Origin: a virus
IMG/VR virus record: IMGVR_UViG_3300025168_009084
Span: 1-31,327 of that record
Direction: 5' to 3' (one strand)
DNA length: 31,327 nucleotides
Shown: in pieces, positions 4,537 to 30,149 of the stretch
Numbering within the stretch: position 1 is the first letter of the stretch
Layout: each line of letters opens with the position of its first letter
The notes under the pieces: generated by a model
The model's input: the letters and a program-made list of their open reading frames with translations, nothing else
The model's database searches: none
What the model was told of the DNA's origin: nothing
Program-made: the position numbers and the translations under genes

Positions 4537-5226
4537 TCACCTTTCAAAGCGAACTTCTTCTTCGCTTGTTAAAACTTCAATCACGCGGTTGCGCAAAATC
4601 TTACCCATACGGGGAACATCTCGCAAACAATCACCACACGCGGCCTCTTCAATTGAGCCACACGCGTTGAGAATTGCTTCGGCCATGTCCGGCCCGATAC
4701 CGGGTATCGTTAGTATCATATCCATACGGACATCATTTGTGGATACGCGTTTAACTGCTTGCGCACCATGTCTGCTTGCTTTCTTGTATGTTTTTTCATG
4801 TAAAGCGACCATGAAAGCCGACGCTTCACTTGCGTTAGGGGCGCGGTAAATGAGGCAACCGAAGTCGGCTACAACCCTACCGAGGAACCCTGTCATTTGT
4901 TTGAGGGCTTGACTGGCTGTGATTGTTGAGCCACGCTCACGCGCTCGGTGAATATAGCCACCGATTTCTCCCCATATCACCAACCCATAGTTACCATCGT
5001 TGGCATCCATGTTATCGAGTTGACGCATTAGGTGACCGCTTCTCATTGAGTTAAACAAGTCATCTATGCTCTTGGCTTCAATCAACCAATCACCACATTT
5101 GTAATCACCGTTGACTAATTTCTGTCTAAGGGTATTGATACGGGGTGACCTTGATTTAGCGCGGCGTTCAAGTGCGGACACAAGTGTGCCTCTTTCATTG
5201 GTATCAATAATCAAAGGTGGTATCAT
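4537..5226 (-). CDS. XPF/ERCC4-family structure-specific endonuclease
   Basis: Nuclease of the XPF/Mus81/Hef family, which cuts branched DNA near ss/ds junctions during replication-fork repair and recombination. The 229 residues contain an ERCC4 nuclease domain (1-140) with IIDTNERG (D8, E11), VNGDY (38-42) and LIEAKSIDDL (48-57). The last corresponds to the family ERKxxxD signature, with Arg replaced by Ala. A tandem helix-hairpin-helix region follows: ILTIPGIGPDMAEAIL (171-186) and a second copy near 200-217. This is the short archaeal XPF layout without a helicase domain. The start overlaps the stop of the winged-helix gene by ATGA. Many such enzymes act with PCNA, and a clamp is encoded here, but I see no convincing PIP box. 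Confidence 0.88.
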   Translation of the reverse strand: MIPPLIIDTNERGTLVSALERRAKSRSPRINTLRQKLVNGDYKCGDWLIEAKSIDDLFNSMRSGHLMRQLDNMDANDGNYGLVIWGEIGGYIHRARERGSTITASQALKQMTGFLGRVVADFGCLIYRAPNASEASAFMVALHEKTYKKASRHGAQAVKRVSTNDVRMDMILTIPGIGPDMAEAILNACGSIEEAACGDCLRDVPRMGKILRNRVIEVLTSEEEVRFER

Positions 5227-21511: not shown

Positions 21512-21837
21512 TCTTCTTCCTCTCCTATGAAATCCTTGACAGGTATTATAGTCGGCGCATGAAGGTCTTTGCTATCGAACTCGTCACTTAGTATCTCAAG
21601 GTCAACTTGCAGATTTGCGCGAACGAGAATGCCACTTTCGGCATCTCTTAGCACCATACTGCGAGCAATCAATCCATCTATGTCAAGCGCATCAACAACC
21701 CATCGGCGGTCACGGAAGTTCGTTTGGAACTCCGCCACCTTCTTTAGTTTATCAGCGCGCAAAGTCATTCTTTGTGCTTCTGCCATCATTTGTTCTTGTT
21801 TCAGTTTCAGTTTTTCTATTGCTTTTTCTGCATTCAT
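21508..21837 (-). CDS. coiled-coil hypothetical protein (109 aa)
   Basis: Residues 2-40 form a long charged amphipathic helix (AEKAIEKLKLKQEQMMAEAQ), probably a coiled coil. The remainder is beta-rich (DRRWVVDALDIDGLIARSM, ILVRANLQVDLEILSDEF) and ends GEEEE just before the next start. No family is recognised. Confidence 0.7.
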   Translation of the reverse strand: MNAEKAIEKLKLKQEQMMAEAQRMTLRADKLKKVAEFQTNFRDRRWVVDALDIDGLIARSMVLRDAESGILVRANLQVDLEILSDEFDSKDLHAPTIIPVKDFIGEEEE

Positions 21838-22334
21838 TCTTGTTCCCCTCCATACAGGGCTGGTTCGTGGTCACCCCACGACAGGTGTTTTCTTGTGCGT
21901 TCATAGTAAGCGCGGTTCGATTCTATTGAATCTTGCGAGAGTATGACAGCAGACTTCTCATCAACATAAAAGTTTCCGAAGAGAGTCCTTTGTCCATGCG
22001 GGATAGTGCCGTCAATGCGAGAAGCCACAGTGTTCAACTTCTCCATGACTTCTCTATACCCTTTGATTTCAAACTTCTCACCTTCACCCCACTTGATTGT
22101 AGCGGCGCGTGTGTATCTCATCATCCATCGAGCGTTGTCTGCTGATACGATAGCAAAGCGAACAAGCGGGTGATTATCGAGTGGTTCAAAACCAATGTCT
22201 TCGATTTCACCACCATGATGTTTGAATGCTGATACTATGATACGCGCACCTTCAAAGGCGGCACTCTCACAGTCAAGCCAACAAAGACGGTTAGCGGATT
22301 GAACAGGGTTCGCGTCAAGCACAAAGAAACTCAT
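21834..22334 (-). CDS. diverged paralogue of the DKH-motif phage protein at 23456-23968
   Basis: The N-terminus MSFFVLDANPVQSANRLCW aligns with MNIFVLDANPVEAARMMCD of the gene at 23456-23968, and the C-termini also match (SNRAYYERTRKHLSW against SAYRNYYSNDKRRFASW). The 166-residue product has lost the family signature: the DKHIPKMVVETAQ segment of the paralogue is WLDCESAAFEGAR here. It is therefore either a non-catalytic partner or a changed-specificity copy. It is coupled by ATGA to the zinc miniprotein upstream. Family function is unknown. Confidence 0.75.
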   Translation of the reverse strand: MSFFVLDANPVQSANRLCWLDCESAAFEGARIIVSAFKHHGGEIEDIGFEPLDNHPLVRFAIVSADNARWMMRYTRAATIKWGEGEKFEIKGYREVMEKLNTVASRIDGTIPHGQRTLFGNFYVDEKSAVILSQDSIESNRAYYERTRKHLSWGDHEPALYGGEQE

Positions 22335-23455: not shown

Positions 23456-23968
23456 TTATTCCTCCATTGTTTCCCACCATTGAGGCGCGGGAGTTCCTTT
23501 GTTCCATGATGCAAACCTGCGTTTGTCATTAGAGTAGTAATTGCGGTAAGCGGAAACAGCATCTCCGCGCACCTTAAAATCATCGGGCATTGCTTGAGCA
23601 AACTCGGTGAGGATACCAACAGGTATCATGTGAAAGTATTGTTCCATGTGCTGAATAGCAGAACTACACGCGTGGATTTTACCGAAACGCATAGTGTATT
23701 CAGCGGAAAGCGTTCGACCATGTTCCGCGAGCCACAAGTAATTCATCTGTGATTCACCACACCATACAGTGCAAGGGTGATGGTGATAGCCCCCCTTGTA
23801 TGGGCGGCCTGTGGTCTTTGCTAATGGCATGATGTCATCATTAGCACCATGTCGTCTTAGCGCGCTCGCCATCATTTGCGCAGTCTCCACCACCATCTTC
23901 GGTATGTGTTTGTCGCACATCATTCGTGCCGCTTCAACAGGGTTTGCGTCTAATACAAATATATTCAT
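23456..23968 (-). CDS. phage-conserved DKH-motif protein (170 aa)
   Basis: The N-terminus MNIFVLDANPVEAARMMCD followed by DKHIPKMVVETAQMM matches a family that I recall as frequent in marine phages (MNIFVLDxDPxxAAxxxCDKHVVKMxxExAQ), often next to small early genes and sometimes annotated as a nuclease- or glycosylase-like protein; its activity is not established to my knowledge. The following segment has HHHPCTVWCGESQMNYLWL, rich in potential metal or catalytic residues. A diverged paralogue lies at 21834-22334. The start is fixed by ATGA overlap with the ART-like gene. Confidence 0.8.
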   Translation of the reverse strand: MNIFVLDANPVEAARMMCDKHIPKMVVETAQMMASALRRHGANDDIMPLAKTTGRPYKGGYHHHPCTVWCGESQMNYLWLAEHGRTLSAEYTMRFGKIHACSSAIQHMEQYFHMIPVGILTEFAQAMPDDFKVRGDAVSAYRNYYSNDKRRFASWNKGTPAPQWWETMEE

Positions 23969-27163: not shown

Positions 27164-29218
27164 TCACTTGGTTGCGACCTTAACTTGTTCAACCTTGTAT
27201 TCCCATGTCTCCATGAAGGCAGGGATGTCAGTGATTGCAGTCATTACTTTCTTACCATTCGCTTTCGCGCTGTAAGGAATCTTCAATTGGTCGGGGTTGT
27301 CTGTCAACCACTGACCCATAGCATCGAAGTCATCAACAGGTTGACCTGTGTGTGCGGCGAAAGCATCAACAGCACCCTTAGCAAAGTCTTCAAGAAGGTT
27401 CGCGGCTTTGTCCGACTTCTTCATCAACAATTCAATGCCTTGTTTCGAGCCGTGAAGAACTCTCTTACCATCAGTGAAGATAGGGTTGTGAGTAATCGTG
27501 CCAGTCAAGACTTGCGCGGCGTGGAATGCACTACCGATTGCGGCCTTGTCTGCTTCGGTCTTATCCAAAGCGACATAATCAACATCGGGATTCATCCAGC
27601 CCTGCATCATTGCGTTGTAAGCGTGTCCGTGTCCAACCTTGACAGCATCCTTCGTCATCATAGCGGCAGTCACAACCAAGTTCCCATTCTTATCCTTCGG
27701 GATTTGGTCGAGGTCGCCAGCCTTGATAGTCAATTTCGGTTGAGATACAAGTCCATGCTTGGCGAATGATGTCATCACTTTGTCAAACACATTCGCTTCA
27801 ATAGGAATGTGTCGAAGGATGTGCATAGCAATCAAGTTCTTGCGAGATTCAAGAAGCGCGTCACCAAGTTGGCTGGCGAATAGTTGAGGGTCGAACTCCG
27901 AGACAACACCTTTCATGTGTCGAACCTTAGCGCGGTCACCAGCCATGAGTAATGCTTGAACTCCACCGCGTGCGGCAAGGTTGCCACAGTAGGTGCGAAG
28001 CACAGTCATGAATGCTTGAAGGGCTGACTTACCATCGTGAGCATTGATGATTGATACACCAACACGATGTCCACCTTCTTCTTCAACAAGCGCATCGCTG
28101 ATTCTGTTGGCAGACAGATTGACATAACCAAAGTTGTTGAGTGACTTAGCAGATTCGTTGCGTGTTTTGTTACTGTAACCAGTGAGGTCAAGATTAAGCA
28201 TAGCACGCGCACCTTTGTTGAAAGAGAATGCGTCGTGACTGATGAGTTCAGTCCCCGACTCAAGTTCATAGGTGAATGTGTTATCACTTGTCTCGACTTT
28301 CTTATAGACACAACCGTTCGCTTCGTTGATGCCTCGGCAAGTATCAATGACAGGGTTAAACACATCGGGGTGTTCAACTACTTCAAAACCAGCACCGGCG
28401 GCGCGGTTGATACAGTAACCGAGTGGGTTATCTTCGTCAGCGAGTGTTGGATTGAACACAGCATTGATTCGATTGTCACCTTTGTTTGTGGTGATGTCGT
28501 GGTAGGAAGTTACTTCTTGACCAGTAGTCGCATCAACAAGAACATTACGCGCAACCAAATCATATGTCTTGGTGCGGAAGTTCCATGCACCAACATTCTC
28601 ATGTCGCTTTCCGCTCACCATTGCTTTGCTGATGTCGGTTGCCATCGTTGCTTTGAGTGCTTCCGATTCAGCGAAGCGTTCTTGGCGTGCCTTTTCAGCA
28701 TCCTTGATTGCTTTAGACTTCTTCTTGGTTGTCTTGGCAGTGGCATCTTCAACTGTCTCATCCTCATCGAGAACAAAGTCTGCGAGTTCAACACCGAGCG
28801 CGTCACCAAAGTTCGGCACTTCATCGTCGGGTGTTGCACCTGTCATGTCAAACACAGGGGTGTCATCGTTGGGTGTTGCACCTGTCATGTCAAACACAGG
28901 GGTGTCATCGTTGGATGCTTGGTAGACTTCACCAAACTCAATCCACATATCAGCAATGTCTATCAGCACAGGGTCGTTGTCAGTATCGTAAGTGTAGTTT
29001 GAGGCTACACTAACATCAACACTGTTGACTCTCGCGTCTTCCAACAAAAACACATGCCAATTACTGCCGTGTTGTATGGTATGCTTGATGCACGCATTAG
29101 GAACGAACTTCTGTCCTTCCCATGCGTTAGATTCAATCACCTGCATGTCGTTCTTTTCTTCTTGCGCTACACCAATTACAATGGTGCGCGGGGCTTCGGT
29201 TTTCGGGGTATTTTTCAT
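27164..29218 (-). CDS. DUF932-like phage protein with FDMTG peptide repeats (684 aa)
   Basis: The start overlaps a small gene by ATGA. Residues 1-95 form an unrecognised domain. Residues 102-140 are an acidic linker carrying two 14-residue repeats containing TPVFDMTGATP (FDMTG at 109-113 and 123-127) and a diverged VPNFGDALG. A Lys-rich helical stretch (160-200) follows. The C-terminal 480 residues resemble DUF932, a phage/plasmid family of unknown function: GVSIINAHDGKSALQAFMTV followed by LRTYCGNLAAR (about 388-417) matches the family NSHDGS...RxVCxN core. The same FDMTG motif ends the protein two genes upstream, suggesting that both bind a common partner. The DUF932 match is from memory. 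Confidence 0.7.
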   Translation of the reverse strand: MKNTPKTEAPRTIVIGVAQEEKNDMQVIESNAWEGQKFVPNACIKHTIQHGSNWHVFLLEDARVNSVDVSVASNYTYDTDNDPVLIDIADMWIEFGEVYQASNDDTPVFDMTGATPNDDTPVFDMTGATPDDEVPNFGDALGVELADFVLDEDETVEDATAKTTKKKSKAIKDAEKARQERFAESEALKATMATDISKAMVSGKRHENVGAWNFRTKTYDLVARNVLVDATTGQEVTSYHDITTNKGDNRINAVFNPTLADEDNPLGYCINRAAGAGFEVVEHPDVFNPVIDTCRGINEANGCVYKKVETSDNTFTYELESGTELISHDAFSFNKGARAMLNLDLTGYSNKTRNESAKSLNNFGYVNLSANRISDALVEEEGGHRVGVSIINAHDGKSALQAFMTVLRTYCGNLAARGGVQALLMAGDRAKVRHMKGVVSEFDPQLFASQLGDALLESRKNLIAMHILRHIPIEANVFDKVMTSFAKHGLVSQPKLTIKAGDLDQIPKDKNGNLVVTAAMMTKDAVKVGHGHAYNAMMQGWMNPDVDYVALDKTEADKAAIGSAFHAAQVLTGTITHNPIFTDGKRVLHGSKQGIELLMKKSDKAANLLEDFAKGAVDAFAAHTGQPVDDFDAMGQWLTDNPDQLKIPYSAKANGKKVMTAITDIPAFMETWEYKVEQVKVATK
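28830..28913. repeat. two tandem 42-bp repeats inside the DUF932-like gene
   Basis: Two adjacent, nearly identical 42-base units (28830-28871 and 28872-28913) encode two 14-residue copies of the FDMTG-containing linker. The period is an exact multiple of three, so the reading frame is kept. Short related blocks (TGTCATGTCAAA) recur in the gene upstream at 29388-29452. Confidence 0.9.
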
Positions 29219-29373
29219 ACTTGTTCCTCCTTATTTTTTGTGTCCGTGGACTGTGATGCGCGAGCCTTCAATTGCTCGCAGTATGTTCTTAGCACTTGTG
29301 TAAATGCTATCATGGATGAATCCATGTCGGGTGTGATTGGTAGTAGTTGTTTGATTTCATCGTCGGGTTTCAT
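29215..29373 (-). CDS. small protein sharing a peptide with the DUF932-like protein (52 aa)
   Basis: The ATG at 29373 and TGA at 29215 overlap both neighbours as ATGA, with GGCGAAGAAG upstream; the next gene uses GGAGGAACAAGT inside this gene. Residues 22-37, IAFTQVLRTYCEQLKAR, resemble QAFMTVLRTYCGNLAAR in the DUF932-like protein encoded immediately downstream (11 of 17 identical). The remainder is acidic at the front and polar at the end. It could be a mimic or partner of one DUF932 helix. No independent family is recognised. Confidence 0.6.
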   Translation of the reverse strand: MKPDDEIKQLLPITPDMDSSMIAFTQVLRTYCEQLKARASQSTDTKNKEEQV

Positions 29374-30149
29374 TCTTCTTCGCCTCCTGTCATGTCAAAC
29401 GCACCTGTCATGTCAAAGTTCATGGTGGGTGTTGCACCCGTCATGTCAAATGTTTCTGCGGCGCGCGCCATAGAATCAGATTCGAGCGACGGTATATGAA
29501 CATTCTCATTCGCGCGGCTGGTATCACTCAATGCTTTCGCAAAGGCTTCGGGGTCAAAGTTATCCATCGCACCCTTCTCATGTAGGATTGGTGCAACACC
29601 TTTCTCTTTTAATGAGTCAGCAATTGCACCGATGTTTGTTGTGCAACCTATCCTTGCAGAAGTGTGAGTGATGTTAATGTCATTCGCAATCTCTTCATGC
29701 AGGTCACCTTCAAACTCGGAGAAGACAATCTCTTCTTCGGTCATCCGGTTGTCTTCGATGTCTTGAGCATCTTGTTCAGCGATGAGTTGTTCAATCGCTT
29801 CGGGTGTATGGTTGCGAGCGAACTTGTCAAAGGTGAGTGAGCAGATACTTACTCCGCAGTTAGAGTCTTCGCAACAGTAGTGCGTCTTCTCCATCTTACC
29901 TTGTTGAATCTTGTAAGTCAATGCTTTCCATTCTCCACCGCAACGAGGACAGTCGCGCACATACTGTGGTGGTATGTGTGCCATGTTCCTGTGTGGGTTG
30001 AGATACTTTTCCTTCAAAGGGCTTTGAGGTCGAACGAATCCATTCATAACAATCATGTATTCACCAACACCTGTGTTGTTGGTAGCCATGCTGATGACTG
30101 TGTGCTTGTCGTCAAGTAGCGTGTGAAAGTCTTGTGTGTCAAAAGTCAT
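29370..30149 (-). CDS. zinc-ribbon protein with C-terminal FDMTG repeats (259 aa)
   Basis: Residues 65-105 form a zinc ribbon: RDCPRCGGEW (C67, C70), then YCCEDSNCGVSIC (C92, C93, C98, C103). A helical acidic middle follows (MTEEEIVFSEFEGDLHEEI). A segment NFDPEAFAKALSDTSR (197-212) resembles EFDPQLFASQLGD in the DUF932-like protein. The tail is AETFDMTGATPT, NFDMTGA, FDMTGGEEE: three FDMTG copies in 22 residues. The two proteins therefore share two peptide types, which points to a common partner or to assembly with each other. The ribbon could bind nucleic acid. No family is recognised. Confidence 0.75.
   Translation of the reverse strand: MTFDTQDFHTLLDDKHTVISMATNNTGVGEYMIVMNGFVRPQSPLKEKYLNPHRNMAHIPPQYVRDCPRCGGEWKALTYKIQQGKMEKTHYCCEDSNCGVSICSLTFDKFARNHTPEAIEQLIAEQDAQDIEDNRMTEEEIVFSEFEGDLHEEIANDINITHTSARIGCTTNIGAIADSLKEKGVAPILHEKGAMDNFDPEAFAKALSDTSRANENVHIPSLESDSMARAAETFDMTGATPTMNFDMTGAFDMTGGEEE

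Follow-up and report, generated by a model that had tools for sequence, protein, structure and literature searches.

A short peptide repeated in proteins of an uncultured virus differs between related viruses and matches within each

Analysis of a 31,327-nt viral DNA sequence (IMG/VR record IMGVR_UViG_3300025168_009084; hereafter the window, or G000 in comparisons) showed that the pentapeptide FDMTG is repeated in the products of two neighboring genes at positions 27,164–30,149. In related viruses these proteins carry a different repeated peptide, so that the peptide, here termed a tag, differs between viruses but matches within each. The listing of open reading frames (ORFs) confirmed both genes, on the minus strand, at the coordinates given in a preliminary description of the sequence, and the residue positions of FDMTG (Table 1) bore out its count of five: three copies in the C-terminal tail of a zinc-ribbon-type protein and two in the acidic linker of a DUF932-like protein, the latter inside a perfect 14-residue tandem repeat (NDDTPVFDMTGATP, twice). 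TTYGAYATGACNGG occurred five times in the record, always on the minus strand, compared with zero for the reversed control pattern. FDMT, DMTG, and MTGA were the sole 4-mers repeated within 60 amino acids in at least two ORFs of the window (0.0 in composition-shuffled ORFs).

We favor, by a modest degree, the reading that FDMTG is the window's version of a genome-private docking tag through which several viral proteins would bind one common partner, most likely the interior of the prohead. Since 24–25 bp of near-identical DNA around the motif are common to the two genes, between which recent copying is likely, DNA copying and protein-level constraint are inseparable within the window alone, and the evidence presented below comes mainly from its relatives.

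Private tags in related viruses

The main comparison comprised seven genomes (G000, G001, G002, G003, G004, G008, and G015); G008 was reached by a search from the Snf2 helicase and G015 by a search from the DUF932-like protein of G008. The first relatives were 64–75% identical to the window in the DUF932-like protein and had a different repeat in the linker at the position of FDMTG. The tags were FDMTG in G000, NTMPDIGL/NTMPAM (NTMPDL) in G001, PDIDWGD in G002, LDIGxI (LD[IV]GDI) in G003, NDDMxIDFGN in G004, F[VI]EEDMP in G008, and PLTEED in G015, often of the type P-x-[I/L/F]-[D/N]-[F/W/I/M]-G and drifting to other sequences. In each virus, the C-terminal tail of the neighbor protein repeated the peptide of its own DUF932 linker. 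The zinc-ribbon orthologues of G008 (L057:2796–3320) and G015 (L061:9331–9849) had lost the cysteines and kept the tagged tail, indicating that the tag is independent of the zinc ribbon. FDMTG was rejected as a conserved motif: it was missing from the six other genomes compared, and one further contig (G044) had it.

Scanning each genome for its own tag revealed additional tagged proteins and brought the total to six families: the DUF932-like protein, its zinc-ribbon-type neighbor, a DEAD/ResIII helicase (assigned by Pfam), a protein of ~360–405 amino acids, a large late-module protein (2,000–2,300 amino acids), and a late protein encoded next to the terminase (517–590 amino acids). The tag was N-terminal in the helicases of G002 and G003 and C-terminal in those of G008 and G015. 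In G015, PLT[DE][DEN] occurred 22 times, all within five tagged families and on both strands; the six other genomes had none. A search with the terminase retrieved 68 relatives, 41 of them with the terminase-adjacent protein. Among these proteins, that of contig G044 (locus L126) contained PEFDMTGATPT and VNFDMTGANPT, and the large protein of the same contig contained FDMSGA twice; the tag of the window, found there in two of the six families, thus recurs in two virion-module proteins of another virus contig. The DUF932-like gene was searched for in 32 late-module contigs and was found in none, as expected for fragments.

Early- and late-module contigs from one metagenome were also observed to share a private tag. 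Contig G043 carried NTMPDL in the helicase, large, and terminase-adjacent proteins and derived from the same metagenome as G001, and late contig G019 carried DMNIDFG and derived from the same metagenome as G004. Judging from sample numbers only, G043 and G019 are probably other parts of the G001 and G004 genomes. Such sharing suggests a possible use for the tag in binning fragments that belong to the same virus genome.

The preliminary description, which had taken FDMTG as a motif shared by two neighboring proteins, was partly right. Its picture of a multivalent, docking-like peptide in disordered linkers and tails common to several proteins stands, but not with FDMTG as the conserved form. 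Copy number was also found to vary while the peptide persists, as the description had suggested checking. Syntenic homologues lacking the peptide, which it had named as evidence against a shared role, do exist for FDMTG, yet each has a replacement peptide of its own that its proteins have in common. The system also extends beyond two proteins to as many as six families, and two of these lie in the structural module.

The matching within genomes was quantified in several ways. An unbiased scan, which required a 4-mer to recur within 60 residues in two or more ORFs, returned the tag alone in each of the seven genomes and about zero in shuffled ORFs; of two control haloviruses, HRTV-27 gave none and HRTV-26 only its terminal repeats. 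In a held-out test, queries were taken only from the DUF932 linker and the neighbor tail and scored with a substitution matrix against 21 other proteins (helicase, ~400-amino-acid, large, and terminase-adjacent). The tag of the same genome was the best of seven in 17 of these, vs. three expected, and the match was usually located at the tag itself. The corresponding binomial value (1.4e-11) is nominal, because the relatives are not independent and shared ancestry was not corrected for. Over 10,000 permutations of genome labels across families, shared 5-mers averaged 62 and never exceeded 112, vs. 144 observed. With a copied fragment of G001 (described below) masked, p was still about 1e-4, and for the single-contig genomes including G015 it was 0.0014. 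When the large and terminase-adjacent proteins of 17 contigs were compared with each other, the own tag was best in only three.

DNA copying and matching at the peptide level

Within one gene, the tag copies were near-identical in DNA, which points to slippage as the source of the arrays. Between genes of the same genome, in contrast, the codons of the tag differed in G002, G003, G008, and G015. For example, PLTEE of G015 was spelled CCA CTC ACC GAA GAA, CCT CTC ACT GAG GAA, or CCA CTT ACA GAA GAG depending on the gene. These differences indicate that the match is kept, and selected, at the level of the peptide. The preliminary description had also considered that local slippage, unconstrained at the sequence level, might be all there is to the repeats; this accounts for local copy number but not for matching peptides written in different codons in distant genes.

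Ectopic copying does occur in these genomes. In G001, an exact 49-bp piece of the DUF932 gene (FRTKTYDMVARSVDPL; L020:3748–3796 and 4557–4605) lies between two tag copies in the tail of the neighbor. In the window, a 142-bp segment of the zinc-ribbon gene matched another G001 gene at 96.5% identity and was missing from G001's own orthologue; compared with the 88% identity of the orthologous part, this implies that a coding segment recently moved between genes. The finding also settled the status of the FDPxxFA peptide, proposed in the preliminary description as a second motif shared by the two proteins. One copy, FDPQLFASQLGD at residue 442 of the DUF932-like protein, is part of the DUF932-like domain conserved in all relatives, while the other, FDPEAFAKALSD at residue 198 of the zinc-ribbon protein, belongs to the segment transferred between genes, and FDPxxFA was rejected as a shared motif.

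Taken to its extreme, such copying could mean that the tag has no function and that slippage and ectopic transfer merely spread a random peptide through low-complexity linkers. The near-identical DNA of tandem copies, the 24–25 bp shared by the two window genes, and the 49-bp fragment of G001 all fit this explanation. We nevertheless regard it as scarcely credible, given that genes separated by up to tens of kb, and lying on both strands, encode matching peptides with different codons, and that the peptides always belonged to the same six families and occurred nowhere else.

The tag changes quickly. Core proteins of G000 and G001 were mostly 87–99% identical, yet the tags were FDMTG and NTMPDL; between G008 and G015, the DUF932-like protein differed by about 12%. 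Intermediate forms were found: PKIDFDMSGA links the IDFG type to the FDMTG type, and EEDMP is common to F[VI]EEDMP and PLTEEDMP. From these sequences, the tags seem to have drifted together and not to have been replaced suddenly, and an initial suggestion of wholesale tag replacement between G008 and G015 was softened because the shared EEDMP core makes drift likelier.

Candidate partners of the tag and comparison with known systems

AlphaFold modeled the linker of the DUF932-like protein (Table 1) and residues 369–407 and 515–542 of the terminase-adjacent protein with very low confidence, which fits disordered docking peptides. The terminase-adjacent model was mostly helical and had no significant fold match, and a sequence search of solved structures gave only weak, implausible matches.

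In the docking reading, all tagged proteins would bind one partner via the tag, and multiple copies would add avidity. Slippage and ectopic copying would supply the copies, and tag sequences would follow the binding site of the partner, such that all tags of one virus drift together. A single common partner would explain the restriction to six families, the multiple copies, the free position of the tag, and the matching within but not between viruses. The site may be the inside of the prohead, where the tag would load the helicase, the DUF932-like protein, and others for delivery with the genome, in the manner of encapsulin cargo. This location is the weaker part of the proposal; it was suggested by the presence of two tagged proteins in the structural module and by the N-terminal IVK-A of the large protein (which starts RFIRIVKA), resembling the ILK-A of the capsid protein (DILKADAP). 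We infer that this is a maturation site and that the large protein enters the prohead. More tentatively still, the tag may be a private peptide code, repeated in up to six unrelated proteins, with helicase and virion proteins among them, and recognized by a receptor that evolves with it, for example the prohead interior. A virus would in this way assemble or package what it encodes itself and leave out the proteins of relatives infecting the same cell, and the code would turn over within about 10% protein divergence but stay matched across scattered genes; this is possible, though we would not rely on it.

Many late proteins of G003 (L026–L030) were observed to have an N-terminal site of the type hydrophobic-hydrophobic-K-[A/G/N/Q/E/S] (capsid DILKADAP, WKLLKANPE, and IRIVKAEE). 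Hydrophobic-K sites near the N-terminus were present in 11 of 36 late proteins vs. 3 of 47 early proteins, and are probably the prohead protease or maturation sites of these viruses.

Several observations weigh against a common docking partner in the prohead. The window has only two tagged families, with copies in almost identical DNA, and by itself fits local copying. The genome sets G001/G043 and G004/G019 are joined by metagenome identity only, and in the single-contig genomes without G015 the exact 5-mer test was not significant (p = 0.08); this failure was attributed to exact words missing degenerate tag copies, and the substitution-matrix test was used in place of exact k-mers after this result. 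The large protein was weakly tagged in G008 and G015, with no tag copy seen in that of several more distant relatives, and the ~400-amino-acid protein of G002 has VDFG, not IDWG. Finally, four of the six families with the tag are not part of the structural module, and a binding partner of the tag was not found.

The position of those four families, which include the helicase, is what would be expected if the common partner were instead outside the capsid, for example a replication or transcription complex, a chaperonin, a PCNA-like clamp, or a host hub, with the tag recruiting proteins to an intracellular factory. The PolB, clamp loader, clamp-like protein, Snf2 helicase, and chaperonin encoded in the window could serve in this role. 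However, this would leave unexplained why the large and terminase-adjacent late proteins are tagged, and the core replication proteins of G000 and G001 have 87–99% identity despite their different tags; we consider this location rather unlikely. A receptor would be dispensable altogether if tags bound each other as homotypic stickers (of a kinked-beta or condensate-like kind) and drove co-assembly. Tag identity within a genome would then matter, and the hydrophobic-acidic, multivalent, and disordered context is suitable, but in some proteins the tag occurs once only or in degenerate form (IDWG with IDFG, EEDMP with EEDVP), and highly acidic forms such as PLTEED would be poor self-stickers, which leaves self-binding improbable.

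A different role, as cleavage sites of the prohead protease, has precedent in T4- and phiKZ-type phages, in which the site cut by the phage's protease is common to several head proteins; the motif would change with the protease. In giant phages, the motif is repeated in the propeptides of many head proteins (PMC10052503), and in the present viruses an S78 prohead protease gene lies beside the capsid gene. In G003, nonetheless, the ORFs that Pfam identified as capsid, portal, and protease contained no match to the tag, which makes it unlikely that the tag is the protease site; the capsid and several late proteins have the different N-terminal hydrophobic-K-A/G/N site instead. In addition, tag arrays occur at extreme C-termini and in early-module proteins, where cutting would free little. 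We therefore give cleavage very little weight.

The closest parallels to the favored docking reading are found in encapsulins, whose Family 1 cargo-loading peptide has a published consensus (SDGSLGIGSLKRS, TVGSL) and directs cargo into an HK97-fold shell from short stretches in flexible cargo tails, and also from the N-termini of secondary cargo (PMC8346489). The viral tags likewise lie in low-confidence stretches (DUF932-like and terminase-adjacent proteins) or at termini (neighbor and helicase), and one motif is common to different proteins of the same virus. By eye, only LDVG[DS]I of G003 (LDVGDI/LDVGSI) resembles the encapsulin consensus, and FDMTG, NTMPDL, PLTEED, and EEDMP do not. The viral tag further differs from encapsulin peptides in being private to each virus, in turning over within about 10–35% protein divergence, and in reaching up to nine copies; it sits in proteins of the virus, and its binding to a capsid shell is hypothetical. 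In the giant phages SPN3US and phiKZ, a virus-specific motif is present in several internal head proteins and repeated in places (PMC10052503). The viral tags resemble these and the T4 head propeptides in that one virus-specific motif occurs in several proteins, but the phage motifs are cleaved and are found in capsid and portal proteins, while the viral tag also occurs at the C-termini of early-module proteins. The acidic C-terminal tail of single-stranded DNA-binding protein (SSB) is a conserved sequence by which one protein binds many partners. The tags are similar in being acidic-hydrophobic peptides in disordered tails, and different in that one changing sequence is spread over many proteins.

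Work on short docking peptides usually deals with conserved motifs, whereas here the matching within a genome is conserved and the sequence is not. Such a pattern is missed by standard homology searches but can be searched for as peptides repeated in several ORFs per genome, a route to identifying which unknown proteins act together in uncultured archaeal viruses. It suggests that the virion may carry the helicase and the DUF932-like protein, would supply naturally occurring orthogonal tags for protein targeting, and raises the question of how a code used by up to six genes can change in step so quickly.

Gene content of the window and neighboring features

Magrovirales are viruses of Poseidoniales archaea. 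Their published description includes a family B polymerase (PolB) and replication and structural modules running in opposite directions (PMC12999244). The window encodes PolB, a clamp loader, a clamp-like protein, an Snf2 helicase, and a chaperonin, and relative G003 has opposed modules with capsid, portal, terminase, and S78 protease genes. Together, the two genomes present a tailed virus with its own PolB replisome and opposed replication and morphogenesis genes, and share with Magrovirales the PolB, the opposed modules, the clamp loader, and the chaperonin. By gene content, the window fits a magrovirus, i.e., a tailed virus of marine archaea, as the genes and opposed modules match the order description (PMC12999244). 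The magrovirus literature covered, including that paper, mentions no repeat or tag. In a phage collection, PolB matched haloviruses at about 22%, while neither the DUF932-like protein nor the large late protein had a match.

The Pfam assignment of the DUF932-like protein is marginal and partial (PF06067, positions 65–154 of 227; 23.1 bits vs. a cut-off of 23, E = 7.4e-5), and the match in a distant relative was below the cut-off (17.5 bits). The AlphaFold model of the DUF932 part was poor (mean predicted local distance difference test, pLDDT, of 44) and had no significant fold match; Foldseek matches of the N-terminal domain to Ten1, RuvA, and RPA were all at E > 1. No relative of this protein was found among the bacterial and archaeal genomes searched, and the zinc-ribbon protein had no Pfam or PHROG family.

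Table 1. Features of the window at and around the two tagged genes (aa, amino acids; AF2, AlphaFold; TRF, Tandem Repeats Finder)
Feature	Position	Strand	Basis or remark
DUF932-like protein, 684 aa: N-terminal beta-rich domain, disordered tagged linker, DUF932-like domain	27164..29218	-	ORF listing, Pfam, AF2
N-terminal beta-rich domain, residues 8–96, OB-like by weak fold matches	28931..29197	-	pLDDT about 75–84
Disordered acidic linker with tag array, residues 101–140	28799..28918	-	pLDDT about 26–32
Tandem array, 42-bp unit, 2.2 copies, 98% match, NDDTPVFDMTGATP twice	28821..28914	-	TRF
FDMTG copy 1, DUF932-like protein residue 109	28880..28894	-	
FDMTG copy 2, DUF932-like protein residue 123	28838..28852	-	
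Pfam DUF932 match, residues 387–483, contains FDPQLFASQLGD (27860–27895)	27770..28060	-	Pfam; present in all relatives
52-aa ORF between the two tagged genes, untagged	29215..29373	-	small ORF there in relatives too
Zinc-ribbon-type protein, 259 aa, tagged C-terminal tail	29370..30149	-	ORF listing, orthologue comparison
Tagged C-terminal tail, residues 233–259, TFDMTGATPTMNFDMTGAFDMTGGEEE	29373..29453	-	the tag lies in the tail in each of the seven orthologues
FDMTG copy 3, zinc-ribbon protein residue 234	29436..29450	-	
FDMTG copy 4, zinc-ribbon protein residue 245	29403..29417	-	
FDMTG copy 5, zinc-ribbon protein residue 251	29385..29399	-	
142-bp moved segment of zinc-ribbon gene	29540..29681	-	matches G001 L020:1538–1679
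FDPEAFAKALSD	29523..29558	-	in, or starting at the end of, the 142-bp segment

The 52-aa ORF between the tagged genes holds VLRTYCEQLKAR, resembling VLRTYCGNLAAR of the DUF932-like domain. At this place L007, L008, and L013 also have a small ORF, and the G001 version is fused at its end with the tagged tail. Elsewhere in the window, two proteins encoded on the minus strand (21834–22334 and 23456–23968) have the N-terminal sequence FVLDANPV in common; the pair, possibly paralogues, is also present in relatives.

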